From positions 1-37,492 of the forward strand of contig NZ_QNFZ01001065.1 in assembly GCF_003313395.1 (NCBI RefSeq): 37,492 nt of DNA, in the 5' to 3' direction. Position numbers and translations under genes: made by a program. This stretch comes from Nonomuraea lactucae. Lineage in GTDB: Bacteria; Actinomycetota; Actinomycetes; Streptosporangiales; Streptosporangiaceae. The notes beneath the pieces are model-generated. The model worked only from the letters and a program-made list of their open reading frames with translations, searched no databases and was not told the origin of the DNA. Positions 3,199-36,512 of this stretch are shown one piece after another. Within the stretch, counting starts at the first letter, position 1; the number at the start of each line of letters is the position of its first letter.

Positions 3199-4098
3199 AT
3201 GAGCCGCACCACGGAGACCGACCAGGCCCGCCCGATCGACCGGCAGGCCCTCAACCGCATCCTCGACGCCATGCAGGGCATCTCCGCCCACGCCATCCAC
3301 TCCACCATCCCGGCCGAGGGGCGTCCCTCCATCCGTATCGCCTTCCCCGGCGTCACCCTCGACCGGCACGAGCTCGCGACCCTGTTCATCGACACCGCCG
3401 CGAAGGTCGAGGGAGACGAGTTCGCTATCGACCTGGGCCGCCACGTGTTCGGATGTGACCACGACGAGGCTCACCTGTGGCTGCCGAACACGGGCTTCAC
3501 TGACGAGTTGTCGCGCGTCCATCCCGGCGTCATCTCCGGGCCGGCCGACATTGCGGCCGACGCCAGCGCCGCCGACGCCGACAAGGAGGACGTGCTCGAC
3601 GCCATCGCCTGGTCCATCACATCCGCGCTCGACACACATCACCCCTTCATCCCGTTCGGAGCCTGCCGCGACAAGGCGCGGGAGGTCCTGGGCAGGGTCT
3701 TCGACGAGGGTGCCCACGAGCCGACATATCCCGGGCTCGACTGGGTCGGCATCGACGGCCACATCAGCCGCGCCGTAGAGGGTGGCCTGTTCAATGGCCA
3801 CCTGTATGAGCGGGACGGGCGGGCGACCGCCACCGTAAAGAGCGGACGCATCATCTCCACGCGAGCCGCGAAGCTGATCTGGCCGGACGCCTCCGCGCCC
3901 GCCCCTCAGGCCCCGGGTTCCCGCGACCACGCCCTCCACGTCGCCTTCAATGAGGTAATCGAGCGGGCGCAGGGCTGGGTCAAAGCGAACACTGCCACGA
4001 CCTCGACGGGCTCACGTACGACGACCTCACCGCCGAGGAGAGCACGGCGCTGCTCGCCCACCTTGCCGCCTAGCCGATTCCGTAAGCGGTACCGATAA
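3199..4098 (+). CDS. Unknown protein with a probable 3' frameshift
   Basis: The frame opens at an ATG preceded by GAAGGAAGAAC and is open for 299 residues. No family is recognised; it is acidic, soluble and strongly GC3-biased up to about position 3990. After that the reading frame turns into Thr/Ser/Arg-rich sequence, while the neighbouring -1 frame gives the far more natural LDGLTYDDLTAEESTALLAH and stops at 4071-4073. One extra C near 3990 would restore the join. The true product is probably about 291 residues ending there; the nominal C-terminus past about residue 264 is likely spurious. The dispersed palindrome and a terminator follow. Confidence 0.6.
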   Translation: MSRTTETDQARPIDRQALNRILDAMQGISAHAIHSTIPAEGRPSIRIAFPGVTLDRHELATLFIDTAAKVEGDEFAIDLGRHVFGCDHDEAHLWLPNTGFTDELSRVHPGVISGPADIAADASAADADKEDVLDAIAWSITSALDTHHPFIPFGACRDKAREVLGRVFDEGAHEPTYPGLDWVGIDGHISRAVEGGLFNGHLYERDGRATATVKSGRIISTRAAKLIWPDASAPAPQAPGSRDHALHVAFNEVIERAQGWVKANTATTSTGSRTTTSPPRRARRCSPTLPPSRFRKRYR

Positions 4099-4100
4099 CA
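4081..4100 (+). repeat. Dispersed palindrome, copy 1
   Basis: CGTAAGCGGTACCGATAACA matches the consensus CGTTAGCGGTACCGCTRACG with outer ATTC/GAAT arms. It ends 54 nt before the ATG at 4155. Confidence 0.7.
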
Positions 4101-4104
4101 GAAT

Positions 4105-4134
4105 GCGCAGCCCCGCCCACCGGCGAGGCTGCGC
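4105..4134 (+). terminator. GC-rich hairpin terminator
   Basis: GCGCAGCC (4105-4112) pairs with GGCTGCGC (4127-4134) around a 14-nt loop, followed by a short CTTA stretch. It lies between the 3199 and 4155 genes, directly after palindrome copy 1. There is no U tract, which is common in actinobacteria. Confidence 0.5.
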
Positions 4135-4154
4135 CTTACCCGGAAGGAATCACG

Positions 4155-4703
4155 ATGCTTGACCAGATCCCCGGCACCGTTCAGGTCACCAAAGCCTGCC
4201 TGGCCGCCCGCGGCGGCACCATCACCAAGGCCCTCGACGCCATCGCGTGGACGGACACCGCGCACCAGCCCGGCCCCTGGTCCGATGGCTTCTACCGCAA
4301 CACCCGCGACAGCGTCCGCGACTACGCCGCGCACATCTACGACATGCTCGACGGCTACCACCCCGACGTCGAGTTCGACGACCTGCGTCCCGAGCACCAC
4401 GACGAGTGCATCCGCTCCGTGGCCGCAAGCTTCGATGAACCCGGCGACGAGCGGCTCTGCCCGATCAAGCTGGCCGATCACCTGCTCGACGGACTGCGCA
4501 AGGCGGCCGCGCTGCGCGTGGAAGCCGGGGAGCACCTCAGCCGCACGTACTCGGACCTGAAGGTTGCGCTGGTGTCGCTGCTGCGCACCCAGTCTGTCGG
4601 CGTGAAGCTGGCCCAGGAGGCCATCGACCACGCGCTCACCACCGGCACCGGCACCGGCACCGGCATCCACCAGGCCGTCGAAGAGATGGACGGTCAGCTG
4701 TGA
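4155..4703 (+). CDS. Unknown 182-residue protein
   Basis: The ATG at 4155 follows GGAAGGAAT at suitable distance. The protein is acidic and mostly helical by eye, with no recognised domain. It shares the short block LDAIAW with the gene at 3199 (there near residue 135, here near residue 27), hinting at a distant paralogue. Near the C-terminus a perfect hexamer repeat, ACCGGC four times (4641-4664), encodes alternating Thr-Gly; repeat changes would alter length without changing frame. Its TGA overlaps the GTG of the next, interrupted gene, so it is part of an operon that also includes 4947. Confidence 0.65.
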   Translation: MLDQIPGTVQVTKACLAARGGTITKALDAIAWTDTAHQPGPWSDGFYRNTRDSVRDYAAHIYDMLDGYHPDVEFDDLRPEHHDECIRSVAASFDEPGDERLCPIKLADHLLDGLRKAAALRVEAGEHLSRTYSDLKVALVSLLRTQSVGVKLAQEAIDHALTTGTGTGTGIHQAVEEMDGQL

Positions 4704-4963
4704 GCGGCGCGACGACGGCCGCCAGGCGTACCGGGCTGGCCGACTAAATCCTGGACGCGCTCCGTGCCGCCAACCACAGCGATGAACGCTTCATCTGCCA
4801 GCAGGACGGGGTGTACGGGGACCTGTACGAAGCCCTCGTCAAGCTGCTGTGCGGCATCGGCTGGACCCGGGAGCAGGTGAGCGCGGCGATCGTGCACGCC
4901 GATCTCGACGGCGAATGCACTATGGCCGACGCACTCTTCGCCTGCCATGGGGTGGGCCAGTGA
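4700..4963 (+). pseudogene. Small gene interrupted by an in-frame TAA
   Basis: A GTG at 4700 overlaps the previous stop. The frame is coding-like throughout: about 90 percent GC at third positions and plausible protein sequence (ERFICQQDGVYGDLYEALVK). It is cut by a TAA at 4745-4747 after 15 codons. Past the TAA, 71 more codons run to the TGA at 4961. A single change from TAC (Tyr) to TAA would explain it. No family is recognised. Either the gene is dead, or translation restarts at an internal GTG, or the stop is read through. Confidence 0.6.
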
Positions 4964-5438: not shown

Positions 5439-5518
5439 CGGGGGGACTGCTGGTGCGGTGGCTGCGCAGAGATCGTCATCGACGCCCGCGAGCTGACGTC
5501 CCCACGTCTGACGGCGAA

Positions 5519-6484: not shown

Positions 6485-6496
6485 CAGGAGAAATTC

Positions 6497-6516
6497 CGTA
6501 ATCAGTACCGCTGACG
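6497..6516 (+). repeat. Dispersed palindrome, copy 2
   Basis: CGTAATCAGTACCGCTGACG has a degraded left arm and a perfect right arm. It overlaps by two bases the hairpin at 6515-6553 and ends 66 nt before the ATG at 6583. Confidence 0.6.
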
Positions 6517-6582: not shown

Positions 6583-7827
6583 ATGACCAGCACCGATGAC
6601 CGCATGACCCCTGAAGAACTCGCCGCATGGCAGGCCCGGAAGGACGCTGGACGTGCCACCGCGAAGAGCATCGAAGTTCAGGTCGCCGCGGCGATGGCCG
6701 CCAACCCCGAGGTGATCGACGGGTTCAGGCTGTTCTGTGCGCGCATGGACGTCTACTCCATCCGCAACGCCATGCGGATCTTCGGCCAGAACCCCAAGGC
6801 CACGCACGTGCAGCCGCGCTTCTTCTGGGGCGGCTACGGCCGCGCCATCGCGGAGCCCGAGGCCGCCATCTGGATCATGGCTCCCAAGGTGGAGCGGAAG
6901 CACACCAAGGAGGTGGAGAGCCCGAAGACCGGCGAGGCCGAGACCGTCGAAGAGTCGTACAAGTTCTGGCCGGTCGAGGAGGTGTTCCCCGCCTCCGCCA
7001 CCGTGCCGAAGAACGGACCGTGCCCGTTCTGCGACACGGGGGAGGGCCAGCTCTGCCCCGACACGTGCCCGGTGATGCAGCCGCAGGACGGCCGCATCCC
7101 GTCCCGGGAAGACGTGACCGAGGCGCTGCGCAAGGTGCTCAAGCAGATTGGAGGGTTCGATGCCAGCGTACTCGCCGCGCTCGGCGATGACCCGCTGGGC
7201 GAGTACAGCGACGGCGTCACCTGGGGCACAGTCACGCTGACAAAGGGCGCCGCCCAGGGGCGCAAGCCGAAGACTCGCAGGTATCGATTCGTGCACACCG
7301 TGGACATGAGCCGGCCGGGCGTCCGCTACGCCATCGCCGGGCTTGGCGTCATCTGGATCGGCCCCTACGAGTTGGCCCGAGAGGGCGAGCCCGCCCTCCA
7401 GGTCCAGTATGGCGACAACGTGACCCGCGCGTGGGAGCTGTCCCACGCCCACACCTGGGACAGCTCCCGCACTGTGGCCGGCCCGCACGCCCCGATCCTA
7501 AACGGGGTGGAGTTTGCGTCCACCAGCATCATCTACCCCACCACGAGCTGGGACTACTTCAGCCCCTGGCGTGCGGGCCGAGCCCGCGTCCCGGAGACGA
7601 CCGCTCAGCAGATGGGCCAGATCGTCCGGCAGCTCTTGGAGCACTACCACGCCCTTCCGGAGGCCGACGAGCTGGACAAGGAAGGGGCGCGCCGCCGGGC
7701 CAGGCGGCGCGCGCGTGAGGCCCAAGAGGAGGTCAACCGACTGGCCGAGCAGGAGGCCCGCCTTGCGAGCCAGCGGGCCGGGGCCGAGCAGCGCGTCGCC
7801 GAGAACCGTGCCCTGGCCGAGCAGTGA
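6583..7827 (+). CDS. ArdC-like ssDNA-binding protein
   Basis: A 414-residue protein. Residues about 45-105 match the ArdC N-terminal ssDNA-binding domain: SIRNAMRIFGQNPKATHVQP, then FWGGYGRAIAEPE and IWIMAPKV, the usual NxxLIxxQxPxAT...W...GR...I.I.AP pattern. A Cys cluster follows (CPFC near residue 147, then CPDTC), and the C-terminus is an Arg/Glu/Ala coiled coil. The C-terminal HExxH metalloprotease of full ArdC is absent. ArdC proteins protect incoming plasmids from restriction; a similar role here is inferred. After the TGA at 7825 the frame stays open to 7914 with coding bias and a CKWC motif, so the protein may once have been longer. Confidence 0.7.
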   Translation: MTSTDDRMTPEELAAWQARKDAGRATAKSIEVQVAAAMAANPEVIDGFRLFCARMDVYSIRNAMRIFGQNPKATHVQPRFFWGGYGRAIAEPEAAIWIMAPKVERKHTKEVESPKTGEAETVEESYKFWPVEEVFPASATVPKNGPCPFCDTGEGQLCPDTCPVMQPQDGRIPSREDVTEALRKVLKQIGGFDASVLAALGDDPLGEYSDGVTWGTVTLTKGAAQGRKPKTRRYRFVHTVDMSRPGVRYAIAGLGVIWIGPYELAREGEPALQVQYGDNVTRAWELSHAHTWDSSRTVAGPHAPILNGVEFASTSIIYPTTSWDYFSPWRAGRARVPETTAQQMGQIVRQLLEHYHALPEADELDKEGARRRARRRAREAQEEVNRLAEQEARLASQRAGAEQRVAENRALAEQ

Positions 7828-8536: not shown

Positions 8537-9979
8537 TTAGGTCCCTGGCGGAGCCGTCCACACCTTCCAGGCCGCGCCGAGGGCAGAGGGAATGAGATAG
8601 GCGGGAGTGAAGCACGAGTTGGCACCGCACAGGCCCATGGTTATCCCCCAGGCAGTATTTCCCTTGTACCACGGGCCTCCACTATCACCCGCAATGCTGA
8701 TTTGGCGGTCCATGACAATGAGCCCACGCGCGTCCGGGTATGATAGGCCGATCTGGGAAATATTTGCGCACTTCGCTACGCGCGTGGACATGCCGAAGGC
8801 GCATATGTTCTGGCCTTTGGCTGGGCTAGTCCCGACGTAGTAGGCGTACCGCGCGTTGTTCCAGTCGTAGTAGAACGTCCTCGTCAAAACGAAATCGCCG
8901 CGAGTCCACGATGCGACGTCATAGCTCGAGGAACCACTGGCGTAGTCACTCAGCGTCTTGCCTAGATGCACGTTATGGTTGGCGTAGAGTGCGCCGCCTG
9001 TGCCGCAGTGCTGGGCAGTTGTCGTTCTGCGCTGGTCGGGGTCGTTGGGTTGGTTTTGGTTGATAATGTTGAACCCAGTTGTGCAGCCGCCGAGAAGGCC
9101 GCCGCCCCTCATATAGCTGTCTTGCGGAGTGACGAGGTCGTTCTCGGTAAGGCGCAGGCGAACACTGATCTTCTTGTTGGCTGGTTGCGCTGGCTGCAAC
9201 TGTGCCGATACGGCCCGCTGCCCGGTAGCGTCCCTAGGCATGCCGCGAGGCTTGACAGTGATCGTGACGACGCCGGTGTCAGTGTCGTAGCCGCCGGAGA
9301 GGGTCTCCACGAGGTCGCGTCGCGCACTCACCTGGGCAAATGCTGCATCCCGCGCCTGCTCCAGGTCTTTTTCCGAGAATCCCTTGCTGCCCACCAGTTC
9401 GACGGTTACCGGCAGCGTTTTGGCCAGCTCTATCGCGTCGGCGGGAATCTCGCCCTTGAACCCGATTTGCGCTCTGCGTCCATCATCGAGGACGGCGAGG
9501 CCGGAGAGCTCAGCGGGGTAACGCACTTCGAGCTTGGCGCCGACTTCGTTCAGGCGCGGTTGCCAGGCGATCGTTTCGATAGCCTCTTCAAGGGTGATCT
9601 TGTTGCCTTCGGCGGCGACCTTCAGGTCGGTCAACTCACTCACCCATAGATCGTCGATCTTCATTTCGGGCTCTACGACCGCTGGATCCACTCCGTCTTC
9701 CTTGGCTCGCGCGGTGACGCTCGGATTCGTAGCTACTGCGTGAGCCACATGGGCGTCGATCGCGTCAGCGAGAGTCATGTTCCGCTGCTTGGCGGTGCGT
9801 TTGATCGCCTCCAGCGTGGGGCGCTGCGGGACAGACTGTGAACCCCGGGGGAGCACGACAATCGTTGGGTCGTCGTCCGTGGCTGTGGCCGACGCTTGGG
9901 ATGGAGCAGCGAGGGTAGATGTGACCAGTGATGCGAGTGCGACCGTGATAAGTATTTTGCCCCTGGCCGGTAAATGCAT
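8537..9979 (-). CDS. Secreted trypsin-like serine protease (S1 family, with propeptide)
   Basis: A 480-residue preproprotein. I chose the ATG at 9979, which follows CGGAGG and starts a clear signal peptide (LITVALASLVTSTLAAPSQA). A propeptide-like region runs to about residue 290. The protease domain has the full triad: His324 in TAQHCG, Asp354 in SYDVASW and Ser433 in GDSGGPW, with paired cysteines around them. This resembles the alpha-lytic/streptogrisin-type enzymes of actinomycetes. It acts outside the cell. It is reverse-strand cargo between the ArdC-like and HU genes and is not an expected core function of a mobile element. Confidence 0.88.
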   Translation of the reverse strand: MHLPARGKILITVALASLVTSTLAAPSQASATATDDDPTIVVLPRGSQSVPQRPTLEAIKRTAKQRNMTLADAIDAHVAHAVATNPSVTARAKEDGVDPAVVEPEMKIDDLWVSELTDLKVAAEGNKITLEEAIETIAWQPRLNEVGAKLEVRYPAELSGLAVLDDGRRAQIGFKGEIPADAIELAKTLPVTVELVGSKGFSEKDLEQARDAAFAQVSARRDLVETLSGGYDTDTGVVTITVKPRGMPRDATGQRAVSAQLQPAQPANKKISVRLRLTENDLVTPQDSYMRGGGLLGGCTTGFNIINQNQPNDPDQRRTTTAQHCGTGGALYANHNVHLGKTLSDYASGSSSYDVASWTRGDFVLTRTFYYDWNNARYAYYVGTSPAKGQNICAFGMSTRVAKCANISQIGLSYPDARGLIVMDRQISIAGDSGGPWYKGNTAWGITMGLCGANSCFTPAYLIPSALGAAWKVWTAPPGT

Positions 9980-10357
9980 CGAACCTCCGCACGATCTTGA
10001 CAGGATGTCTTGATCATCATCAAGGTCTGAGACGACCCGTGCAAGAGACCAGTAGGCGGCCGAGATGACTCTGTGATCTGGTAACGCCACCGGTCGATTT
10101 CATCGAAACGCGGAGGTGTCCTGGCGAGCCGTTTGAGCGTCTACAACACGGAGGCCGTGTTCGTGACCAGCCAGACCTCAAACCGTAGTGGACCTCATCG
10201 TTGCGCAGAACTATCGCATCGCGATCGACGAGGCATGCAAGCGGGCTGCACTGGATGGTGCGCACCCGGAGGTGGCCTCGACGTGGCGTCCCCGCCCCAA
10301 CTGTCGAAGTAGGAGGTGACGCCCACAGCTGTTCAAGATTCACTGCTTGACCAACTC
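9980..10357. other. 380-bp region upstream of protease and HU genes
   Basis: It holds the divergent control region of the protease (minus) and HU (plus) genes. A small inverted repeat, CTTGAT-CATC-ATCAAG, lies at 10010-10025. No credible gene is seen; the reverse open frame 10020-10382 lacks coding bias. Confidence 0.35.
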
Positions 10358-10377
10358 CGTTAGCGGCAACGCTAACG
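10358..10377 (+). repeat. Dispersed palindrome, copy 3
   Basis: CGTTAGCGGCAACGCTAACG has perfect 8-bp arms with a variant centre. It ends 44 nt before the HU start codon, the spacing seen at several other copies. Confidence 0.75.
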
Positions 10378-10421: not shown

Positions 10422-10730
10422 ATGGACACCGGGAAGAACATCAAGACGAAGAGCGACATCATCTACGCCGTCATCGACCGGGCTGGAGCGCCCAGCCGTC
10501 GGATTGCCGAGCGGTATGTGAGCGGCGTGCTCGACTACATCCAGGAGCAGGTCGCGGACGGGAACACGGTGAAGATCACTGGGTGGGGCAAGTTCGAGCC
10601 CATTAAGCAGGCGGGGCGTGACGCCCGCAACCCGCAGACAGGCGAGCGGGTGCCCGTCGAGGCCAAGTGGGTCGTCAAGTTCCGGCCTGGCACGGAGTTC
10701 AAGCGGCAAGTGGCTGCGCGCCAGGCTTAG
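10422..10730 (+). CDS. HU-family DNA-binding protein
   Basis: A 102-residue protein starting at an ATG 6 bp after GGGGAGA; the longer frame from a TTG at 10347 would translate through the palindrome. HU/IHF signatures are present: the helical N-half (KSDIIYAVIDRAGAPSRRIAERYV), the turn TGWGKFEPI (residues 53-61), and the DNA-contacting arm ending NPQTGERVPV (70-79). It bends DNA as a dimer and may assist integration, replication or packaging of the element. It is a single gene with its own terminator. Host HU is elsewhere, so this is an element-borne copy. Confidence 0.92.
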   Translation: MDTGKNIKTKSDIIYAVIDRAGAPSRRIAERYVSGVLDYIQEQVADGNTVKITGWGKFEPIKQAGRDARNPQTGERVPVEAKWVVKFRPGTEFKRQVAARQA

Positions 10731-11878: not shown

Positions 11879-12397
11879 TCACAGAGATGGGGGAGATGAT
11901 ACCCCGGGCTCCTGAGGCTCCTTCGGTCGCGGGATTCCCAAGTCGTCGAAGTAGGCATTCAGCACATCAGAGATGAACGGCCGGCCGCCCAGGTCTTCCC
12001 GCAGACAACCCTCGACGAGACGCGCCCGCGTGTTCCTGGTCAGCCGCACCATGATCAGCTTGCCGCCGCTCATGTTGTTCTTCTTGGGAGCTGGGATCTT
12101 CAGTTCGGCGTCCTCGGGCATCTCCTGCGGGATGCCGAGCGTGTCGCAGTAGGCGTTGATGGCTTCTTCCCAGATGTCCCTGACGCCCCTGCCTGTGCGA
12201 TCGTGAGCCTTCGTCATGCGGGAGTTCGTGGCGTCGTCCAGGCGGGTGCCGGTGTTGTGGAGAGTGGTCCACGTTGCCACGCGGCCGCGGGTGGGCGCGG
12301 CGGTGCGTCGCGGCGTCAGCGGTGCCGCTGACGGATTTTCCGAACGATTGGCCTCGTGGAACTCGACTTGCGAAGGTTCCGGTTTCTTGCGGGGCAT
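11879..12397 (-). CDS. Unknown basic protein with an internal repeat
   Basis: I chose the ATG at 12397 (PRKKPEPSQ start), which has GGAAG upstream; a GTG at 12280 is a real alternative because palindrome copy 4 would then lie 34-53 bp upstream, as at other copies. Two similar modules are visible: EEAINAYCDTLGIP and SDVLNAYFDDLGIP, each after a charged helix. The second is preceded by KLIMVRLTRNTRARLVE, which resembles a ribbon-helix-helix DNA-binding strand and helix. A small DNA-binding or partition-type protein is possible; no family is firmly recognised. It is the last gene on this minus-strand stretch and shares a terminator with its convergent neighbour. Confidence 0.55.
   Translation of the reverse strand: MPRKKPEPSQVEFHEANRSENPSAAPLTPRRTAAPTRGRVATWTTLHNTGTRLDDATNSRMTKAHDRTGRGVRDIWEEAINAYCDTLGIPQEMPEDAELKIPAPKKNNMSGGKLIMVRLTRNTRARLVEGCLREDLGGRPFISDVLNAYFDDLGIPRPKEPQEPGVSSPPSL
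12314..12333 (-). repeat. Dispersed palindrome, copy 4 (minus strand)
   Basis: Read on the minus strand it is CGTCAGCGGCACCGCTGACG, with perfect 8-bp arms and the same AATC-type left flank as plus-strand copies. It is the only inverted copy and lies in the only minus-strand gene that carries one. The paired change to C-G at positions 4 and 17 preserves the stem. Confidence 0.75.
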
Positions 12398-12639: not shown

Positions 12640-13734
12640 CTATCTCACCAGGCGCAGTGACGGGGAGACAGGTGCCGTCGTCTGAGCACCGCCCCTCAGC
12701 GGCGTCGGAGTAAGCCCGAACACATGCTTATTCATTTCCTCTGCGGTGATGTGTAGAGCATCCGCTATCTGCGTGTGCGAGACGCCTTCCGCCCGCAGCG
12801 CCGCAAACACCTTGGTCATGAGTTGGGAAGACTCCCGCTTGATCCCCCCCGGCTCTTCTCGGCGATACCCCATCCGGGACAGGTTCGTCGACAATGCTCG
12901 GTAGCCCCACTCCGTCACCAGGTTGAGCTCGTGGAGACGGTAGGTCAGCGCCATGGCCGAGACCTTCCAGACGGATTTTGCCGCTAGAACCCGGTCGACA
13001 GTGGCGTTGTTGAGTCGCTTGGCGAGCACCGCTGTGGCCGGCATAAGGAGGGCCGACGCGAACTGCTGAGCCTGCTGCTCGGCCTCCCTGCCATGCGGGA
13101 TCTCGTGCTGGGGATGCAAAACTAGGTGCGCCAGCTCGTGCGCGCCGTCGAAGCGGCCTCGCTCACCTGATTTCCTCGTGTTGAGGATCACGTACGGTGT
13201 GCCCTTCCAGTAAAAGGAAAAGGCGTCGACTTCCAGGCATTCCTCGGCCAGGGAGAACACGCGAACACCGTGCATCTCAAGGAGATGCACCATGTTGCCG
13301 ATCGGAGCGACACCGAGGTTCCACAGTGCGCGCACCCGCTCGGCGGCCCACTCCGGATCTCGTCCTGGCAAGCTGGGGACGTCCGGGGCGGGCAGGCGAA
13401 ACCGCTCTTCCATCCACTCGTTGACCATGATGGCCATGCGGGCTGCGGCGAGGGCGGTGTCGCGCTGACCAGCCGTGAGCTTACTCGGCGCCCGGAAGCT
13501 TACCGCTTCCAGCGGGATTTCTTCGATCTCTTCGGCCGTCAAGAATGCGACTGGCATCTCTAGTGCCCTGGCCAGAGTCTCAAGAGCGGCAGTAGTGAGT
13601 TGTTCTCTTCCGTTCTCGTAGTCGGACAGGGTGCGGGTGCTGATGCCGCTGACCTGCTCAAGCTTGACCAGGGTCATCCCCCGGCGCTTGCGGGCCAGTT
13701 TCAGCCTTGATGGTGTGAATGAGTGCTTGTTCAT
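12640..13734 (-). CDS. XRE repressor with ImmA/IrrE metallopeptidase domain
   Basis: A 364-residue two-domain regulator. Residues about 8-65 are a Cro/C1-type helix-turn-helix (KLARKRRGMTLVKLEQVSGI, then STRTLSDYENGREQLT). Residues about 135-290 are an ImmA/IrrE peptidase with the zinc motif HELAH (His199, Glu200, His203). The C-terminal 70 residues contain another helix-turn-helix-like stretch (VSHTQIADALHITAEE). In ICEBs1 of Bacillus, ImmA cleaves the ImmR repressor to trigger excision; fused XRE-ImmA proteins are frequent in mobile elements. It probably controls induction of this element or serves the adjacent gene 13760-14419, which lies upstream in the same direction 25 bp away. Confidence 0.88.
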   Translation of the reverse strand: MNKHSFTPSRLKLARKRRGMTLVKLEQVSGISTRTLSDYENGREQLTTAALETLARALEMPVAFLTAEEIEEIPLEAVSFRAPSKLTAGQRDTALAAARMAIMVNEWMEERFRLPAPDVPSLPGRDPEWAAERVRALWNLGVAPIGNMVHLLEMHGVRVFSLAEECLEVDAFSFYWKGTPYVILNTRKSGERGRFDGAHELAHLVLHPQHEIPHGREAEQQAQQFASALLMPATAVLAKRLNNATVDRVLAAKSVWKVSAMALTYRLHELNLVTEWGYRALSTNLSRMGYRREEPGGIKRESSQLMTKVFAALRAEGVSHTQIADALHITAEEMNKHVFGLTPTPLRGGAQTTAPVSPSLRLVR

Positions 13735-19967: not shown

Positions 19968-19991
19968 CCACCCCACGGGAGCGGGTGGTCA
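19965..19991. terminator. Bidirectional terminator containing both stop codons
   Basis: TGACCACCC (19965-19973) and GGGTGGTCA (19983-19991) are perfect complements. The TGA of the plus-strand LuxR gene is the first three bases, and the TGA of the minus-strand gene is the last three, so one stem ends both genes. Confidence 0.65.
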
Positions 19992-20483
19992 GCGGGCGCG
20001 CAGCATATCGATCTGCTGCTTGGTCGACTTCAGCAGCAAGTCCATCTGCTGGAGAAGGAACGTCTTCATTCGCTCCCGCTCGTCGTCGGTGGCGCCGGGC
20101 AGAGCACGAATCTCTTGCAGCCGCTCCTGGAGCTCGCGCTGCACCGTCTCCGGCGTCAGAGACAGGTCGAGGCCGGCCAGCCCGTCTTCTTGGCTGCGCT
20201 TGGCGATGATGTCGCGCAGTAGCTCGGCGGCCTCGGGCGCGCCGTCCTCGGCCAGCTCGTCGCTGGTGGCGCCGACGACGTAGGCCATCCAGGCGAGGTC
20301 GATGTCGGAGATGGTCTCGACCTTGCCGCCCTCGATGCGGCCCCACTTCATGTCGCTGATTGTGTATGGGGCGACGTCGTTGAATCGGCGGACGGCGGCT
20401 CGGACGGACAGCTCGCGCTGGAGCGTGTCGGTTCGCTTGCGTCGCCGGATGATGACGGCGACGCCGGGGGCAATGCTGGGCAC
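19989..20483 (-). CDS. Putative helix-turn-helix regulator
   Basis: A 164-residue protein from a GTG at 20483 with AAGGGG upstream; the ATG at 20549 would add a segment encoded by short tandem repeats. Residues about 10-75 look like a degenerate XRE-type domain (LQRELSVRAAVRRFNDVAPY, then TISDMKWGRIEGGKVETISD). The C-terminal half is a Glu/Arg/Leu helix (ETVQRELQERLQEIRALPG, then LLLKSTKQQIDMLRAR) likely to form a coiled coil. It faces the recombination operon across a 190-bp gap with paired operators and is a good candidate for its repressor. Confidence 0.65.
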   Translation of the reverse strand: MPSIAPGVAVIIRRRKRTDTLQRELSVRAAVRRFNDVAPYTISDMKWGRIEGGKVETISDIDLAWMAYVVGATSDELAEDGAPEAAELLRDIIAKRSQEDGLAGLDLSLTPETVQRELQERLQEIRALPGATDDERERMKTFLLQQMDLLLKSTKQQIDMLRAR

Positions 20484-20496
20484 AGGGGGCCCCTTC

Positions 20497-20532
20497 GGCG
20501 TTGTGGCGTTGGCGTTGTGGCGTGGCGTTGCA
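20497..20532. repeat. GGCGTTGT-type short tandem repeats
   Basis: GGCGTTGT, GGCGTT, GGCGTTGT, GGCGT and GGCGTTGC follow one another directly upstream of the preferred start of the minus-strand regulator. They may be operator units, or replication slippage products; they would be translated only if the ATG at 20549 were used. Confidence 0.45.
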
Positions 20533-20633
20533 ACAGTATCAACATGCATGTCGCGTCGCCCAGAGTGCGCGAAAAGTCGATCACGATACGCGACAGCGAT
20601 GTCACGCGAAGGATAAGTTACAACTGTTGCAAC
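20527..20633. promoter_or_regulatory. Paired operators between divergent genes 20483 and 20742
   Basis: GTTGCAACAGT (20527-20537) and ACTGTTGCAAC (20623-20633) are exact 11-bp inverted copies 85 bp apart. Each contains the palindrome GTTGCAAC. The region between is AT-rich (GATCACGATACGCGACAGCG). One regulator bound at both sites could control both promoters by looping. Confidence 0.55.
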
Positions 20634-20741
20634 TTAGATAGACATATGCATCAGCGAGCGATATTGTCGTCGTGTCGCGAGATGTACCGACAAGATCATT
20701 TAGTCGCGTGAACGCACCATCACCAGCACGAACGGAGCTCA

Positions 20742-21077
20742 ATGCCTGTCTTCGATGAAGTCGTCTGGACAAAGCCAGCGCCACGCCACGGCGCCCCAGA
20801 CCTCTCACGCATCGCCGATCAGCTCCGTGCCAAACCGGGTGAGATAGCGATCATCGCGGAGTTTCCCGCCGAGATCGCCAGCGGCAGCGCGGAGGCTGCA
20901 CGCCTCCGCAACGCCGTCAACAACGGTCGATTGGGGTTCGACGACCTCTCGGGACCATTTCGCGCCAGCACCCGAACCGTCACCGAACACGACGGGAGCA
21001 AGTGCGTCCGCGTCTTCGCTGTCTTTGCCAACGCCAATCCCGTTAGCGGTACCGCTGACGAAAAGGAGAACCGTTGA
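20742..21077 (+). CDS. Unknown protein with a palindrome-encoded tail
   Basis: A 111-residue protein and the first gene of the long operon to 30.1 kb. The ATG lies after GAACGGAGCTCA. The body (PDLSRIADQLRAKPGEIAII, later FRASTRTVTEHDGSKCVRVF) looks like a small alpha/beta fold; I do not recognise the family. The last residues, NPVSGTADEKENR, are encoded by dispersed palindrome copy 5. A similar tail ([10 protein letters not shown]) ends the collagen-like protein at 33581, so the repeat seems to have been added in-frame to existing 3' ends. The TGA overlaps the TTG of the next gene. Confidence 0.65.
   Translation: MPVFDEVVWTKPAPRHGAPDLSRIADQLRAKPGEIAIIAEFPAEIASGSAEAARLRNAVNNGRLGFDDLSGPFRASTRTVTEHDGSKCVRVFAVFANANPVSGTADEKENR
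21041..21060 (+). repeat. Dispersed palindrome, copy 5 (closest to consensus)
   Basis: CGTTAGCGGTACCGCTGACG is perfect except for a T-G wobble at positions 4 and 17. It is immediately followed by the AAAAGGAG ribosome site and, 13 nt on, the TTG start at 21074, while still coding for the tail of the previous gene. Confidence 0.8.
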
Positions 21078-23590: not shown

Positions 23591-25062
23591 CGTCAACTAC
23601 CCCCAACCTGCCCGCCATCGCGACCTGGCCGGTTCCCGACCGCGTCCGCTACTCCGAGGAACTGGCCAAGGCGGGACTTCTGCCGGACGCCTACCGGCGC
23701 CAGCCGTCGAACGTCCTGTACGCGATCGAGTGGGGCATCGCGCTCAACATCGAGCCGATGGTCGCCATCGTCGAGGTCCATGTCATCAAGGGCAAGCCGA
23801 CCGCATCGGCGGGCCTGATGTCGGCACTGGTGCGCCGTGCCGGTCACAAGCTGCGCACGTGGGTGGACCACGACGAGCAGGGCAACCCCGTCAAGGCCGT
23901 CACCACAATCATCCGTGCCGACGACTCCGACTTCGAGTTCCGCTCCGAATGGACCATGCAGCGGGCTGCCCGGGCCGGGCTGGTCAAGCAGAACGAGAAC
24001 TACGGCAAGTACACCGAGCAGATGCTGAAGGCGCGCAGCGTGGGCGAGTGCGCCCGGGACGCGTGCAAGGAAGCGCTGCTCGGCTTCACGTACGTGCCCG
24101 AGGAGCTCGGCGCGCAGATGAACGAGGACGGCTCGTACGTCGTCACCGGCGCCACGGTGCAGGCGGGCGCGTCAGTCCGGGAGGCCGCCGCGGCTGCCCA
24201 GGAGGCGGCCGGCGTGGTCATGGCCAACAGCAAGAAGCTGAAGGACCTGGCCGACCTGATGGACGCCAAGGGCGTGAAGGACAAGCTCGGCTACATCAGG
24301 GAAATGTTCCCCGACCACGAGTTCAACTCGGCCCACGACCTCACCGCCGCGCAGGCTGACCAGGTGATCAATGCCCTCAACCGGGGCGTGAACCTGCCCG
24401 CCCAGCAGGACGCCCCCGACGAGGCGCAGAACAACAGCGCGCCCGCCAGCGAACCGGCCGCCCCGGCCCCAGCCGGCGAGCAGTCCGCGGCCGTCGACAA
24501 GGAGGATCCGGTCGAGGCCGACATCGTCGAGGACGAGCCCGCCGACCCCAAGGACCTGCGCGACCTCGGCATCCTCATGATGGAGCTAGGGATCACCCCG
24601 CACACCGGAAGGGGCTCCACGAAGCTGAATGACGAGGCCCGGTTCGCCTGGCTGTCGAAGTTCCTGGGTGTCAAAGTCGAGGGCTCGACGAAGAACCTGA
24701 CTCGCGACCAGGCGCAGCGTGCCCTCGCCGAGCTGAAGCGGCTCCAGGTCGAACGGGCTAAGCGGCGGTCCGGCCTGTACAAGCTGATCAACGAGTCGTT
24801 CAACCGGCTCGGCATCACCAACGCCGAGGACCGCTTCCGTGACATCTCGGACCTGCTCGGCCGGACGGTCATGAAGGCGGACGACCTCGCGTTCGACGAG
24901 GTGGAGACGGTGTCCGATCTGCTGGAGCAGGCGCTTGACACCGAGACGCCCCGGCCGACCTGGGACACGATGATCGACGCCGCCAAGAAGGCGAACCAGG
25001 CTCAGACGAAGGGCCAGGCGGACCAGGCGGGCCAGGTAGAGCAGCAGAGCGGCGGCTTCTGA
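23587..25062 (+). CDS. recT: RecT-family single-strand annealing protein with long C-terminal extension
   Basis: A 491-residue protein. Residues about 15-200 match RecT annealing proteins: EELAKAGLLPDAYRRQPSNV, IEPMVAIVEVHVIKGKPTAS, AGLMSALVRRAGHKL, then YTEQMLKARSVGECARDACK. A Pro/Ala/Glu-rich linker (about 280-320) leads to an extra helical region to residue 491 (LRDLGILMMELGITPHTGRG, later ERFRDISDLLGRTV in altered form). Typical RecT is about 270-330 residues, so the extension is notable; it may bind partners at forks. It acts with the YqaJ exonuclease directly upstream. Start ATG 23587 overlaps the yqaJ stop. Confidence 0.88.
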   Translation: MTSTTPNLPAIATWPVPDRVRYSEELAKAGLLPDAYRRQPSNVLYAIEWGIALNIEPMVAIVEVHVIKGKPTASAGLMSALVRRAGHKLRTWVDHDEQGNPVKAVTTIIRADDSDFEFRSEWTMQRAARAGLVKQNENYGKYTEQMLKARSVGECARDACKEALLGFTYVPEELGAQMNEDGSYVVTGATVQAGASVREAAAAAQEAAGVVMANSKKLKDLADLMDAKGVKDKLGYIREMFPDHEFNSAHDLTAAQADQVINALNRGVNLPAQQDAPDEAQNNSAPASEPAAPAPAGEQSAAVDKEDPVEADIVEDEPADPKDLRDLGILMMELGITPHTGRGSTKLNDEARFAWLSKFLGVKVEGSTKNLTRDQAQRALAELKRLQVERAKRRSGLYKLINESFNRLGITNAEDRFRDISDLLGRTVMKADDLAFDEVETVSDLLEQALDTETPRPTWDTMIDAAKKANQAQTKGQADQAGQVEQQSGGF

Positions 25063-27870: not shown

Positions 27871-28010
27871 TGGACCAGCCCAACCTCGACGACGAGCTCG
27901 GCGAACCCGTGGTCGTGGACGGCGAGGTCGTCGGCTACCAACTCCCACTCCCTGAACCCAAGAAACCACCACGTGAACACACCCGCCCAGGCACACGACA
28001 CAAAGCGTAA
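27870..28010 (+). CDS. Very small acidic protein
   Basis: A 46-residue acidic, Pro-rich protein (LDDELGEPVVVDGEVVGYQL). Its TAA lies within dispersed palindrome copy 6, and a GTG in another frame (27973) opens the next possible gene before it ends. No family is recognised. The coding call rests on codon bias and the coupled start. Confidence 0.5.
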   Translation: MDQPNLDDELGEPVVVDGEVVGYQLPLPEPKKPPREHTRPGTRHKA

Positions 28011-28167
28011 GCGGAACCGCAAACGATCTAAGTCGCTAGCGCGACGGACCGCGATCTGGTCCCTCGACGGCGCCACGCTGCTGGCCGTCGTCGAGGGACC
28101 GGTCACCCCCGAAGACATGGCCGCCGCGCGGATGCTCGCCCTCCGCGCCACCCAGAGCACGACCTGA
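27973..28167 (+). CDS. Small basic protein overlapping palindrome copy 6
   Basis: A 64-residue protein from a GTG, overlapping the previous gene by 38 bp. The N-terminus is very basic (KRKRNRKRSKSLARR, partly encoded by the palindrome) and the rest is a short alpha/beta piece (WSLDGATLLAVVEGPVTP). No ribosome site is obvious, so the start is uncertain; a start within or after the palindrome is possible. No family is recognised. Confidence 0.5.
   Translation: MNTPAQAHDTKRKRNRKRSKSLARRTAIWSLDGATLLAVVEGPVTPEDMAAARMLALRATQSTT
28006..28025 (+). repeat. Dispersed palindrome, copy 6
   Basis: CGTAAGCGGAACCGCAAACG matches the consensus at 17 of 20 positions, with two mismatched inner pairs. It contains the TAA of the 27870 gene, as the stop of the 2606 gene falls in a degenerate copy. 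Confidence 0.6.
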
Positions 28168-28182: not shown

Positions 28183-28500
28183 ATGTCCGTCACCGCAGCC
28201 GACGTCATCGGCGAGGTGCTCGACCGAGGCGGGAGCCCGGCCGATGTGCTGGCCGCGCTCGCCCACGCCGGTATGCCTGTCCTCGAACCACTGGACGAGC
28301 TGGAGCCTGGGTGGCTCCCGACCACCCGGTATGGCCTGCAACTGGTGCGGCACGCCGCCCGCCTCACCGCCGAGGGCCAGACCTGCGAGGAGATCGCGGC
28401 CGAGCTGAACAAGAGCACGCGATCGGTGCAGCGCTACCTCGCCGCCGCGGTGCACTACGGGCTGCTCTACGCCCAGCGCCGGCAGAGGAGTCGCTGGTGA
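28183..28500 (+). CDS. Small helix-turn-helix protein
   Basis: A 105-residue protein with an excellent AGGAGG site five bases before the ATG. Residues about 55-95 form a helix-turn-helix (LVRHAARLTAEGQTCEEIAA, then ELNKSTRSVQRYLAAAV) resembling sigma-70 region 4 or LuxR-like domains. The N-terminal half is helical (VIGEVLDRGGSPADVLAALA). It may regulate the late part of the operon. Its TGA overlaps the next GTG. Confidence 0.7.
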   Translation: MSVTAADVIGEVLDRGGSPADVLAALAHAGMPVLEPLDELEPGWLPTTRYGLQLVRHAARLTAEGQTCEEIAAELNKSTRSVQRYLAAAVHYGLLYAQRRQRSRW

Positions 28501-31248: not shown

Positions 31249-31515
31249 TCAAGAACGCGTACCGGCGCCTGGCCCGCCAGTTCCACCCTGACCTGCACCC
31301 GGGCGACACCGCGGCGGCCGAGCGATTCAAAGAGGTACTGAGGCGCGTACGACGTGTTGTCCGACCCGCGTCAGCGGGAGACGTACGACCTGAGCGGACG
31401 CAGCCGCGGCCCGGATGACATTCGTAAGCGGTACCGCATACGGTGTGGGCTCGACCACTTCCCTCGGTGGGCGGGTCCCCGCTTCATGTTTCTGGAAGGG
31501 AAGGGCGGCGCACGT
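31245..31515 (+). pseudogene. Truncated and frameshifted J-domain (DnaJ-like) remnant
   Basis: From the GTG at 31245 the frame reads [20 protein letters not shown] and [10 protein letters not shown], which are J-domain helix II, the essential HPD loop and the start of helix III. The next frame then gives [20 protein letters not shown], the usual J-domain end. One extra base near 31344 causes the shift. Helix I (the DYYxxLGV start) is missing. The second frame runs open through palindrome copy 7 into the downstream initiator gene. A full J-protein would recruit Hsp70, as in phage replication. As it stands it is probably inactive. Confidence 0.65.
31423..31442 (+). repeat. Dispersed palindrome, copy 7
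   Basis: CGTAAGCGGTACCGCATACG keeps pairing at positions 4 and 17 by the change to A-T. It lies at the end of the J-domain remnant and ends 73 nt before the initiator start. Confidence 0.7.
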
Positions 31516-32825: not shown

Positions 32826-33581
32826 ATGCAAATTCGATCACTGACCAGGGCGGCGGGGGGCGCGCTAGCAAGCGCCTCACTCGCTGCCGCACTGGTCATC
32901 GCAGCAGGAAGGGCGGCACCCGACGTGTTCGGGATCGCCGCCATGGCCACCGACCCGCCTACCGCGTGCCCGACGACGGAACCGCAGGTGCAGTGCATCA
33001 TCGGTCCGCACGGTCCGGCAGGCCCCCAGGGTCCGGCAGGTCCGCAGGGTCCCCAGGGCATCCCCGGTCCGACCGGTCCCCAGGGCTCGCCTGGTCCGGA
33101 GGGTTCTCCCGGTCCGCAGGGTCCCAAAGGTGGCCGGGGCCCGCAGGGTCCGAAGGGTGACCCAGGTCCGCAGGGTCCGGCAGGCCCACAGGGTCCCCAA
33201 GGTGAGAAGGGTCCCACCGGTCCCGCTGGTTCCCCCGGTCCTGTCGGTCCGACGGGCGCGCAGGGCAACCCCGGCACGCCCGGACGGGACGGCACTAGCA
33301 AGGGTGGCACCATTGCCACGCCCACGCCCGGCAAGAGCGCATCCAGCGTCCGCCATAGTCCGTCACCATCGCCGAGCGACAGTCCCGCCGGGGGCAAGCC
33401 AGGCGCGGCGATCGACGCCGACAAGGCAGCCGACGACACCCCCGCCGCGTGGTGGCGCGGGCTAGGTGCGGCCGGAGTGCTGCTGCTCCTCGCCGCCACA
33501 CTGCTGTGGTGGTACGCGAGGCGACGCAAGGCCGAAGACGATGCGACCAATTCCGTTAGCGGTAGCGCTGGCGCAAGCTGA
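32826..33581 (+). CDS. Collagen-like membrane-anchored surface protein
   Basis: A 251-residue protein. I chose the ATG at 32826, which opens a signal-like hydrophobic N-terminus ([20 protein letters not shown]); an upstream ATG at 32798 is out of frame with it or lacks support. From about residue 60, 33 uninterrupted Gly-X-Y triplets run to about residue 158, rich in GPQ, GPA and GPT. A Ser/Pro-rich stalk follows, then a membrane segment ([15 protein letters not shown]) with an RRRK stop. It should form a trimeric collagen-like rod outside the cell, held by its C-terminus. Its last residues, [10 protein letters not shown], come from palindrome copy 8. Such proteins are usual on phage tails or spores, less so as anchored cargo. 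Confidence 0.85.
33554..33573 (+). repeat. Dispersed palindrome, copy 8
   Basis: CGTTAGCGGTAGCGCTGGCG can pair over seven positions if T-G wobbles at 3-18 and 4-17 are allowed. It lies in the last codons of the collagen-like gene and ends 64 nt before the next ATG. Confidence 0.65.
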
Positions 33582-33637: not shown

Positions 33638-34315
33638 ATGGCAACCAGGGCCACCGGCAAAACCAGCACCGCCACCCCCGCCGCCGACGCGCCGAACCTC
33701 ACCCCCACTGAGGTGGTTGAGGACGCGATTGCCGACCTTCAGCGCGCCATCGAAGGGCATACCAGCAACAACCCGTTCGCGCTGGTTTACCGGCTTACTG
33801 GCTCGCGGCTGACGATCGCCGAAGTCGTCGCCATCCGCTCAACTGGTGCGACGCTCTACAGCGGTCCGACGCCCGCCGTCTTCGCGGCCAGTACGCCGAA
33901 GCCGACCGACGAGGAGCGCGCAGGCTGGTACTACGTGCCCGCCCGCGCCGGAGCCGCCGACCGCATCGCGCGGGGCTGTGGCCTGCTGGGCGTCACCCCG
34001 GATCACGTGCTCGCCATGTGGGCACCGGGCGCATCGGACCTGTCCGCACTGGCTAAGGCCAAGGACCCGTTCACGGAGGCCGAAGCCCTGTCCAAGGCAG
34101 CGGAGGTCAAGGCCGCCGAGAAGGTCAAAGCCGAGCGCGAGCGCGTGATCAAGAAGTCCGTTACCGACGCTGTCACGCTCGCGAACCTCGACCTCGACAC
34201 CCTGCCCGCTTGGCGGAAGGCGATCGAAGCGGGGGCAGACGTGGACGCGCTTTCCGAGGCGTGGACTAACGCGAAGTTGACCCCGCCCGCCGACGAGTCG
34301 GCCGACCAGCAGTAG
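33638..34315 (+). CDS. Unknown 225-residue protein
   Basis: The ATG follows GAAAGGGCAG. The N-terminus is Thr/Ala-rich, then comes a helical region ([20 protein letters not shown], later [19 protein letters not shown]). A long charged helix lies at about residues 150-185 ([33 protein letters not shown]). It looks like a soluble structural or nucleoid-associated protein but matches no family I recognise. It is followed by a terminator. Confidence 0.6.
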
Positions 34316-34341: not shown

Positions 34342-34386
34342 AGGGGCCGCCCCCTATCACCAGCCCAACGCCACATTGGGAGAGAC

Positions 34387-35112: not shown

Positions 35113-35130
35113 CGGCACGACGCCGATGCG

Positions 35131-35161
35131 AGCCCCGCGCGCCAGCCAGGCGCGCGGGGCT
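35131..35161 (+). terminator. Strong GC hairpin terminator
   Basis: AGCCCCGCGCGCC (35131-35143) and GGCGCGCGGGGCT (35149-35161) pair perfectly over 13 bp with a 5-nt loop. Confidence 0.7.
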
Positions 35162-35286
35162 GTCGCGCGTCCAAGATCACCCCCCGGGGGGCCGGTCCTC
35201 AGAAGGCTGGCGGACCGAAGTTGGCTTGGTTCGAGCGGAAACGAGTTGATCTTGTACTGTGGTGGGTCGTCTCGGGAGGTGGGTGT

Positions 35287-35994
35287 GTGGTGGCTGGTCA
35301 GGCGTGTGTGGGGCCGTGCAACGAGGGGTCGCGCGAGCGGTGGGCGGCGTTCTTGGAGGCTCGGGAGGCTCATGCGGATGCGGTGGATCGCTGGGTGCGG
35401 GAGGGCGGGAATGGGGAGCCGCCTGCGGAGCCGGTGGAGCCTTCGCTGAGTTGGCGGCCGGGGGAGCCGCTTGTGTGTGCCCGGTGTCGGGCGACGACTC
35501 GGCGGGCGTTGATCGCGGTGCGTGATTTGGCGGCGGTGCGCGCGGCGGAGGCTGATGGTCTTCGTCCTGCGTCGAGGTGGTCGAGGGTGTCGGGGACGCG
35601 GCCGCATGGTAGTCCGTCGCCGGTGGTAGATCTGCTGGACGGCCTGACGGGGGATCTGCTGAGGTTCGAGGCGGCGTATCTGCGTGCGCGGCGCTGGCCT
35701 GAGGCTGCGTCGGCTGGTCGTGGTGCGGAGGCGCGCGGCCGGGCGGTTGCGCTGCTGGTGGAGTATCTGCCGGGGGTGCTGGCGCTGCCGGAGTTGACAG
35801 AACTGGTCGACGTGGTGCTCTGCTGGGAGCGCCGTCTGCGGGAGGCGCCGGATTGGACGCCGGCGCGGTGCCGGTGTGGTGACCGGAATCTCTGGTGGGA
35901 CGCGAAGGTGGGGTATTTCGTGTGCTCGGCGTGCGGAAATCACGTGAGCGCGGTGGAGGAGCGGGGCCTGGTCGCCGACGAGGCGGGCGCCTGA
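35287..35994 (+). CDS. Zinc-ribbon-containing protein of unknown function
   Basis: I start it at the GTG at 35287 (or 35290), which has GGGAGGTG upstream; the longer frame from 35221 begins in the promoter area. Three Cys groups are visible: QACVGPCNEG near the N-terminus, LVCARCRATT in the middle and CRCGDRNLWWDAKVGYFVCS...C near the C-terminus, the last a typical zinc ribbon. Long Arg/Ala helices lie between. Proteins of this layout occur in actinophage genomes, where their role is unknown. Gene composition shifts to GTG- and TGG-rich codons compared with its neighbours. Confidence 0.65.
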   Translation: MVAGQACVGPCNEGSRERWAAFLEAREAHADAVDRWVREGGNGEPPAEPVEPSLSWRPGEPLVCARCRATTRRALIAVRDLAAVRAAEADGLRPASRWSRVSGTRPHGSPSPVVDLLDGLTGDLLRFEAAYLRARRWPEAASAGRGAEARGRAVALLVEYLPGVLALPELTELVDVVLCWERRLREAPDWTPARCRCGDRNLWWDAKVGYFVCSACGNHVSAVEERGLVADEAGA

Positions 35995-36083
35995 TCCGCC
36001 GCTGCCCTTGGCGGGCACCCGTCTTGGCCTGTACTCCGCGCGCCTTTTGATAAAACGATCATCACTCTGATTATGGTCATCAT

Positions 36084-36446
36084 GTGGCTTCAGAAGAGTT
36101 CTACGTCACGGCCGCGCAGGTGCTCCCGACTCTGCTGATCGCCTTGTCGGTGGAGATAGGTTTTATCTTGCAGCGGCTGCTGCGTCGCGGCATCAGGCAT
36201 CTGGACGCATACGAGGAGACACGCTTCGAGGATGTGATGGGCTCTGTAGCCCGTTGGTTCACGGTCAACCTAGTGCTCGGGTGCGCATTTCTGGTTGGTG
36301 AAGTGCTGGCGTTCCTGTCGATCGGATTCCGGTGGTTCAACTCCTGGACTTGCGCGTTGATCGGGCTGTGTGTGTTGACCATGACTGTTGGAGTCGTCGT
36401 TGTTCCGCTTGTGAGCGCTGTGCGGGTCTACACCGCAAAGGAATAG
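36084..36446 (+). CDS. Small multi-pass membrane protein
   Basis: A 120-residue protein from a GTG. Three hydrophobic segments are visible (VLPTLLIALSVEIGFILQ, FTVNLVLGCAFLVGEVLAFL and ALIGLCVLTMTVGVVVVPLV), joined by a basic loop (LLRRGIRHLDAYEETRFEDV). Coding bias is weaker than in the core operon. No family is recognised. A ribosome site is not obvious, and an AT-rich promoter-like stretch (36048-36080) lies directly upstream, so the mRNA may be leaderless. Confidence 0.6.
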   Translation: MASEEFYVTAAQVLPTLLIALSVEIGFILQRLLRRGIRHLDAYEETRFEDVMGSVARWFTVNLVLGCAFLVGEVLAFLSIGFRWFNSWTCALIGLCVLTMTVGVVVVPLVSAVRVYTAKE

Positions 36447-36492
36447 TCGGTTCAGGTCCTCCGGGTTGCTGCAGGATGGACCTGGAATCGGG

Positions 36493-36512
36493 CGTTAGCG
36501 GTTCTGCTGACG
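36493..36512 (+). repeat. Dispersed palindrome, copy 9
   Basis: CGTTAGCGGTTCTGCTGACG keeps both 7-bp arms, with a T-G wobble at 4-17. It lies 46 bp after a stop codon and 258 bp before the next start, ahead of a foldable region at 36539. Confidence 0.65.

Follow-up and report, generated by a model that had tools for sequence, protein, structure and literature searches.

Dispersed 20-bp palindromes in a Nonomuraea prophage as candidate operators of an immunity-repressor-like protein

Nine palindromes and their relatives in other prophages

The window analysed here is the whole 37,492-nt stretch of Nonomuraea lactucae DNA, i.e., the entire contig C771 (NZ_QNFZ01001065.1). It very probably represents a tailed-phage prophage's early half, the host being Nonomuraea or close kin. 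An initial annotation had listed nine copies of a 20-bp palindrome dispersed through this element. When both strands were scanned, all nine were recovered within 3 mismatches of the consensus CGTTAGCGGTACCGCTRACG, against a chance expectation of 0 (100 dinucleotide shuffles, largest count 0); the copy at 21041 alone was exact and the other eight showed 2-3 mismatches. The sites are given below with gene starts taken from our own codon-usage gene finder, except for the ATG at 31516, which was assigned by reading the sequence, and with their counterparts in the related genome G069.

4081..4100, plus strand: palindrome CGTAAGCGGTACCGATAACA, 54 nt ahead of the 4155-4703 start; no G069 counterpart found
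6497..6516, plus strand: palindrome CGTAATCAGTACCGCTGACG, 66 nt before 6583-7827; G069 counterpart at 76463
10358..10377, plus strand: palindrome CGTTAGCGGCAACGCTAACG, 44 nt before 10422-10730; G069 counterpart at 68279
12314..12333, minus strand: palindrome in the predicted minus-strand gene 11879-12397, within its 5' portion; G069 counterpart at 64219
21041..21060, plus strand: palindrome CGTTAGCGGTACCGCTGACG, exact consensus, located in the final part of 20742-21077, 13 nt ahead of 21074-22057; G069 counterpart at 56264
28006..28025, plus strand: palindrome upstream of the helix-turn-helix (HTH) gene 28183-28500; interval occupied in 18/18 site-bearing elements having the gene
31423..31442, plus strand: palindrome upstream of the replication-initiation (Rep) gene, 73 nt from the ATG at 31516; no G069 counterpart found
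33554..33573, plus strand: palindrome 64 nt before 33638-34315; interval occupied in 6/6 site-bearing elements having the gene
36493..36512, plus strand: palindrome 258 nt before the next predicted start; no G069 counterpart found

Six copies had been said to end 13-73 nt ahead of a start codon, and this was borne out by distances of 13, 44, 54, 64 and 66 nt from the gene finder and of 73 nt by reading for 31423. The minus copy at 12314 lies, as claimed, in a predicted minus-strand gene, whose G069 homologue also bears a site. Scoring with a palindromic position weight matrix (PWM) returned values of 23.2-31.3 for the nine sites and 7.1 for the tenth-best place, a gap that makes the site set of the window sharply bounded. 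The degenerate copies proposed at 2792, 3012, 11784 and 13758 scored from -10.2 to 3.6 and are not sites.

The sites were concentrated in the window rather than occurring at equal density over the host chromosome. Across the whole genome (8.67 Mb, 1068 contigs), all 5 places within 1 mismatch of the symmetric pattern CGTNANCGGTACCGNTNACG fell in the window; of the places with exactly 2 mismatches, the window held 4 more and the rest of the genome another 4, including one in a second contig, C769. The level of 3 mismatches is mostly noise, since it gave 101 places in total versus 45 for a reversed control. Among 200 genomes of the family, the window-type pattern (up to 1 mismatch) occurred at 3 places in the genome of origin and at 1 place in each of three others, and it was not repeated in any of the 199 other genomes.

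Two genes of the immunity region have to be introduced at this point.

19989..20549, minus strand: 186-aa HTH protein, immunity-repressor-like, the proposed palindrome binder
20742..21077, plus strand: gene divergent from the repressor, in the position of Cro in phage TurkishDelight (position alone)

The first of them, hereafter the 19989 protein, had been named among three candidate binders as 19989-20483, a later start within the fuller open reading frame. Related elements were fetched via homologues of this protein, which occurred at 39 places; 27 were examined with their flanks, leaving out twelve (G277, G195, G268, G161, G180, two in G103, G322, G160, G024, G190 and G050). At 23 of the 27 loci at least three palindromes were found, belonging to a common superfamily with element-specific sequence. 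When palindromes were clustered de novo on simple mismatch counts, GC-rich repeats overwhelmed the result. The motif classes were seeded by us and refined by iteration, and the resulting six class-specific PWMs returned 184 sites in 24 contigs (the 23 elements and C769) and 0 in one shuffle per contig that kept base composition alone. The half-sites of the six classes are as follows.

Class W: CGTWAGCGGT
Class D: CGMMAGCGGT
Class A: YGATAGCGGT
Class B: CGTTGGCGGT
Class C: CGCAAGCGNN
Class C2: CGCAAGC/CGCTAGC (grown from 3 seeds to 19 sites; the least certain class)

In N. thailandensis, 14 of 17 matches to the class-A pattern fell within 62 kb of the 13.8-Mb genome (reversed control, 2 matches), and in N. 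sediminis 16 of 21 fell within 40 kb of 12.1 Mb (reversed control, 4), one palindrome being able to yield two such matches. Three such prophages occur in the assembly G241; their repressors share 29-34% identity, their palindromes fall into three classes, and 17 of the 19 matches belong to the class of their own prophage. This sorting of classes by prophage argues against a host-encoded reader. Rep matches were obtained in 16 genomes, and nine elements that carry the Rep gene and lack a clear 19989 homologue (370 kb; G103 weak, E 3e-4; G142, G150 and G108 left out) gave 5 scattered matches, at most one each. Pattern scans of viral contigs, made blind to the 19989 protein, matched 32 contigs, ten of which were searched for the repressor. 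One was a 91.6-kb virus that encodes a 19989 homologue and has 17 palindrome places (2 for the reversed control); another was the 65.6-kb record of G269, known already. Sites and inter-element distances are not independent among related elements, and all p-values given here are guides.

The sites showed a marked preference for gene boundaries: 122/184 were intergenic, versus 16% of random places, and 127/184 lay between 100 nt ahead of a start and 20 nt past it, versus 19%. As many as 159/184 were inside genes or between co-directional genes. For the 105 sites in gaps of at least 20 nt, the gap was co-directional in 80 cases, divergent in 21 and convergent in 4. The initial annotation aptly likened the repeats to stoperators and start-associated sequences, except that sites in co-directional gaps are nearer the preceding stop (beginning a median 4 nt after it) than the next start (ending a median 52 nt before it).

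Particular gaps were occupied across classes, namely those upstream of the 28183-type HTH gene (18/18 elements), 33638 (6/6), Rep (5/7) and 6583 (6/8), whereas others never were: those of RuvC-like 27035 (0/17), GntR 16131 (0/15), 34387 (0/14), RecE 22637 (0/9) and 20742 (0/9). A site before the major head gene was found in C769, G069, G702, G703 and G704; it belongs to class A in three late-half fragments found by pattern alone and to other classes in C769 and G069. By gene neighbours, 8 of the 11 sites of the window and C769 have a counterpart in G069, with 4081, 31423 and 36493 as the exceptions. The sharing of gaps between elements with different sequence classes indicates that position is largely kept while sequence is rewritten.

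Orientation was evaluated by a leave-one-out model with 5-nt flanks, which assigned it correctly with respect to transcription at 111/149 sites pooled from 20 elements (random-orientation control, 30 runs: mean 0.50, maximum 0.62). The better arm was the left one at 17/20 sites of class D, 9/10 of C, 7/8 of C2, 13/21 of B, 6/11 of W and 30/61 of A. Pairing between the two arms did not exceed that of arms re-dealt among sites of one element (observed/re-dealt: W 0.773/0.776, D 0.681/0.691, A 0.668/0.684, B 0.785/0.815, C 0.600/0.623, C2 0.620/0.622). It was slightly poorer than after re-dealing in classes A, B and C, where 494, 497 and 485 of 500 re-deals, respectively, were at least as high. 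Compensatory change between arms, for which a covariance check had been recommended, was not found in any of the six classes, and the keeping of a stem at positions 4 and 17 did not rise above chance in either the re-dealing or the covariation count.

Two further features of site arrangement were observed. Pairs exactly 27 bp apart, start to start, occur in G069 (76463/76490), G265 (4262/4289) and G028 (26448/26475; joined-loci positions) and could reflect cooperative binding of two dimers. At the Rep-upstream site (window 31423-31460; G084, G265, G256, G271) one half is often of another class: the right arm reads CCGCTTACG, and a similar GTGGGGGC-like stretch comes next. Such a site may change more slowly or have a second function.

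The candidate reader and its proposed mode of action

The distance between 19989 proteins correlated with the distance between palindrome motifs with a Mantel r of 0.84 over the 23 elements, and when each of ten other genes was compared on the elements that it shares with 19989, 19989 had the higher r every time. Partial correlations for the 19989 protein were 0.43-0.83, versus -0.26 to 0.25 for the ten other genes given 19989, and a class-blind repeat with eleven genes left it at 0.38-0.78. Its HTH and C-terminal parts tracked the motif about equally (partial r 0.42 and 0.33). In an exploratory analysis, the residue best separating the motifs was M67, in the segment read as the recognition helix. 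This comparison favours the 19989 protein among the three binders originally named, and we consider it the likely reader of the sites.

When 394 genomes of the class were searched with a 19989 profile, four gave matches reaching E 1e-8 (its own, G069, one more member of the family and one outside it). A single-sequence search at a cut-off of E 0.01 matched one phage record at E 4e-3, a protein of Gordonia phage TinyDot annotated as its immunity repressor. By hhalign, the 19989 family aligned with this repressor at a probability of 97.5% (E 6e-12) and, at 96.2% (E 2e-9), with the protein that carries the same annotation in Streptomyces phage TurkishDelight; the same profile comparison gave no homology to the Bxb1 repressor gp69 (probability 0.3%) or to the XRE-ImmA protein of the window. 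Sequence searches of the PDB returned no convincing relative.

These data lead us to propose, with a probability of roughly 0.6, that the palindromes are dispersed operators of the immunity repressor 19989-20549(-), which would silence lytic genes mostly by blocking elongation. The earlier suggestion of an operator for an element repressor thus appears well supported by the comparison. The 19989 protein would bind the palindromes as a dimer, and in the lysogen the bound repressor would keep lytic genes silent, mainly by halting RNA polymerase during elongation between genes or causing its release, in the manner of stoperators; at some sites it might also block initiation. Elongation block is suggested as the main mode, at somewhat less than even odds, because 159/184 sites lie in genes or co-directional gaps, often just past a stop and with no promoter signature. 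Regulator dimers on DNA can serve as roadblocks, as reported for C.Kpn2I (PMC6237814), and reversed stoperators lose function (PMC9283540). More tentatively still, the system may be an independently evolved stoperator system, in which a dimeric repressor of another family reads oriented imperfect palindromes behind stops and halts polymerase gap by gap along a prophage of at least 70 kb, with at least six specificities and the whole site set rewritten in step with the recognition helix.

Phage repressors usually act at promoters, as lambda CI does, and operators acting on initiation alone, each overlapping a promoter, would be an alternative account. It would suit the 21 of 105 sites in divergent gaps and the slightly raised mean promoter-like score near sites (5.27, n=127, versus 5.13 at 1118 site-free starts, p 0.016), but we judge it unlikely given the 80 sites in co-directional gaps with their median 4 nt from the upstream stop. 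Strong promoter-like scores (at least 6.5) were found near 3.9% of sites versus 2.5% of controls, and a consensus scan around the sites returned no clear -10/-35 signature, although the promoters of this host group may deviate from the consensus used. Another element regulator could instead be the binder, since the LuxR-like 19008, tandem-GntR, XRE-ImmA 12640 and 28183 HTH proteins all look DNA-binding and the distances of GntR, 28183 and 19008 correlate with the motif (r 0.82, 0.81 and 0.66). Their partial correlations given 19989 fell to between -0.26 and 0.09 (class-blind, -0.30 to -0.08); moreover, by tblastn at E 1e-4, 19008 was present in 14, GntR in 15 and 28183 in 18 of the 23 site-bearing elements, some truncated, and XRE-ImmA in none except the window, which makes this alternative improbable.

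An RNA hairpin acting in the transcript, on translation or termination, had also been suggested. Pooled orientation and closeness to start codons are in line with it, and single folds placed a full hairpin in the centroid for 5 of the 9 window copies (10358, 12314, 21041, 33554, 36493) and part of one for 28006. The copies at 4081, 6497 and 31423 did not adopt this fold, and only 21041 folded much better than shuffles (z -3.6). Since the arms show no covariation, with a score over 11 sites of 0.098 versus 0.084 when shuffled (154/500 shuffles at least as high), and pair no better than re-dealt arms in all six classes, an RNA stem is unsupported; an Rfam scan of the window matched a tRNA only, and we give the hairpin a slim chance. 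Lower still do we rate parS-like partition or segregation sites bound by a phage ParB. A protein with a ParB_N domain is encoded in C769 (25457-26176, minus strand) beside the C769 site at 25443, but eight site-bearing genomes (G269, G256, G278, G340, G247, G339, G249, G243) had no prophage-type ParB, only weak N-terminal matches of about 30-38% identity in frames of chromosomal-ParB length, and neither orientation nor gene-gap placement is expected of parS. A small mobile or selfish repeat of the prophage, or a host intergenic repeat, might likewise be mostly intergenic and often just past a stop codon. It is nevertheless hardly credible because the positions are kept while the sequence changes class, and it fits poorly with the concentration of sites in the prophages of N. 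thailandensis and N. sediminis, with the sorting of classes by prophage in G241 and with the lack of repetition of the window type in the 199 other genomes of the family.

Several results weigh against the proposed repressor-operator system. The divergent region 20450-20760, the expected place of an autoregulatory operator, contains no site (best score -2.7), which is a point against a simple CI-like switch. Presence of the 19989 protein in 23/23 site-bearing elements is by construction, as they were fetched through its matches; four of the 27 loci, with a more distant homologue (G169, G051, G275b, G025), had no class site, and 8 of the 10 pattern-found viral contigs searched, three of them late-half fragments, had no 19989 homologue. 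RecE, the sole exception among the other genes, kept a partial r of 0.51 in the class-blind repeat (9 elements), and 34387 had a raw r of 0.85 on the 14 elements that carry it, versus 0.88 for 19989 there. HTH_31 was matched by 7 of 11 members at E up to 1 (best 0.0018), and the window protein scored 13.1 bits versus a cut-off of 27. As for direction, the claim that it follows transcription held for the pooled elements but not for the window by itself, where 5/8 sites were predicted correctly; the model failed in G084 (1/5), G339 (1/6) and G250 (3/7), and with the 20-bp core alone it was right at 99/149, equal to the highest of 30 random controls. Orientation with transcription is thus supported in the pooled set only. 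The 14.3-Mb assembly G241 has contamination given as 9, so that its three prophages are not certain to share one genome. Finally, phages with related repressors showed no convincing dispersed palindrome in the parts scanned (50.0 of 93.6 kb of TurkishDelight, 50.0 of 52.8 of phiT46-1, 50.0 of 57.5 of Squiddly, 34.1 of 41.1 of TinyDot, and GMA1 whole), and site multiplication may therefore be particular to the present prophage group.

In those phages some word families did exceed a single shuffle (TurkishDelight 11 versus 3 neighbours, TinyDot 10 versus 2). Their sequences, for instance GAGCTC- or TCGACG-like words, were spread through genes and were judged to be codon noise.

The prophage carrying the sites

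Further features of the window are listed below.

1197..1271, plus strand: tRNA-Arg, at the element's left edge, a possible attachment site
22637-23590, plus strand: RecE-like exonuclease, downstream of the immunity region
23599-25062 (as scanned), plus strand: RecT-like annealing protein, downstream of the immunity region

The window also encodes a RuvC-like resolvase (27035), a replication initiator, the XRE-ImmA protein and two tandem-GntR proteins. In G069 (contig C74), many of its early genes recur in the same order and are followed by terminase, portal, major head and tape-measure genes, while C769 carries terminase, portal and major head genes. On the G069 map, C771 genes occupy 83.8-39.5 kb and C769 genes 37.7-7.5 kb, C769 being collinear with the part of the map missing from C771; one C769 match, weak at 32% identity, lies off this collinearity at 94 kb. 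Because both contigs are collinear with complementary parts of G069, they very probably represent the two halves of a single prophage of up to about 72 kb. C769 adds two sites: one, of window type, lies ahead of the genes leading to the large terminase, and the other precedes the major head gene. Four relatives of the element are present as IMG/VR records of 51-99 kb.

The last ~75 nt of the window (37416-37492) match four other contigs of the genome, and the contig therefore probably ends at a repeat. Just before the 33554 site, in the early region, positions 33003-33265 hold a 9-bp repeat array that would be collagen-like (Gly-X-Y) if translated. The protein encoded at 8537-10090 on the minus strand has a GDSGGP motif, which we take to be typical of S1 proteases, and its homologue is absent from the related elements compared. 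The XRE-ImmA (peptidase M78) fusion at 12640-13734, minus strand, was not found in other site-bearing elements and could be an induction or anti-repressor factor.

Comparison with known systems

The best-known case of a prophage silenced from many dispersed sites is that of the Cluster A mycobacteriophages. In L5 and Bxb1, 20-30 repressor sites, the stoperators, are distributed genome-wide, most of them off promoters, in short intergenic gaps and oriented with transcription; their motif distance tracks repressor distance, and they are asymmetric, 13-14 bp long and bound by a monomer with two DNA-binding domains (PMC6550527, PMC9283540). The sites described here are likewise dispersed, oriented with transcription when pooled (111/149) and tracked by a repressor-like protein. 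However, they are 20-bp palindromes, though with some left-right asymmetry, and the 19989 protein has no detectable similarity to Bxb1 gp69.

The repressor sites of phiC31 are called 'conserved inverted repeats'. Dispersed repressor sites of this phage are mentioned in PMC4557955, and a de novo scan of its genome recovered a dispersed palindrome family, a 20-mer with 14 further copies. Both systems thus have dispersed palindromes that are candidate sites for a phage repressor, but the core recovered from phiC31, CTACTCACGTGAGTAG, is unrelated and gave no match in the window at 3 mismatches, and the 19989 protein matched TinyDot alone among phage records at E 0.01, not the phiC31 repressor.

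Cluster K phages carry extended start-associated sequences (ESAS), i.e., 17-bp inverted repeats with a variable spacer, located upstream of starts and tied to the start-associated sequence (SAS); the left repeat is nearer consensus, and the elements are linked to particular gene families and have subcluster-specific bases (PMC3203893). Arm asymmetry and gene association are shared with our palindromes, but SAS GGGATAGGAGCCC gave 1 match in the window (2 mismatches, at 16825) versus 1.1 expected. In Cluster O, more than 30 17-bp palindromes TGTTCGGNNNCCGAACA occur genome-wide, many intergenic and about a third in genes, with a predicted dimeric binder, little evidence of orientation and stable lysogens not recovered (PMC4351075). 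They resemble the present sites as many dispersed, largely intergenic palindromes for which a dimeric binder is proposed, and differ in sequence, with 0 window matches at up to 2 mismatches. The statement that our sequence is none of the known repeats consequently holds for the three tested in the window (SAS, Cluster O and phiC31). No binder is named for the ESAS or the Cluster O repeats in the available text of PMC3203893 and PMC4351075, whereas here the covariation across 23 elements allows one protein family to be proposed. We found no description of such sites in Nonomuraea prophages in the open-licence literature searched.

On the repressor side, the HTH region of the 19989 protein is homologous to that of the TinyDot and TurkishDelight repressors, and with TurkishDelight the element also shares the gene order repressor (minus strand), Cro (plus strand), exonuclease and RecT; the GMA1 homologue of the 19989 protein is annotated as hypothetical. 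Binding, the switching of specificity and the need for orientation become directly testable in this system, the classes could yield orthogonal repressor-operator pairs, and the question is raised of how a whole site set changes specificity together. On our best reading of the sequences, the palindromes would work like stoperators or phiC31 sites but with another type of site and another repressor family, and by the tests made they belong to none of the known dispersed-site systems compared.

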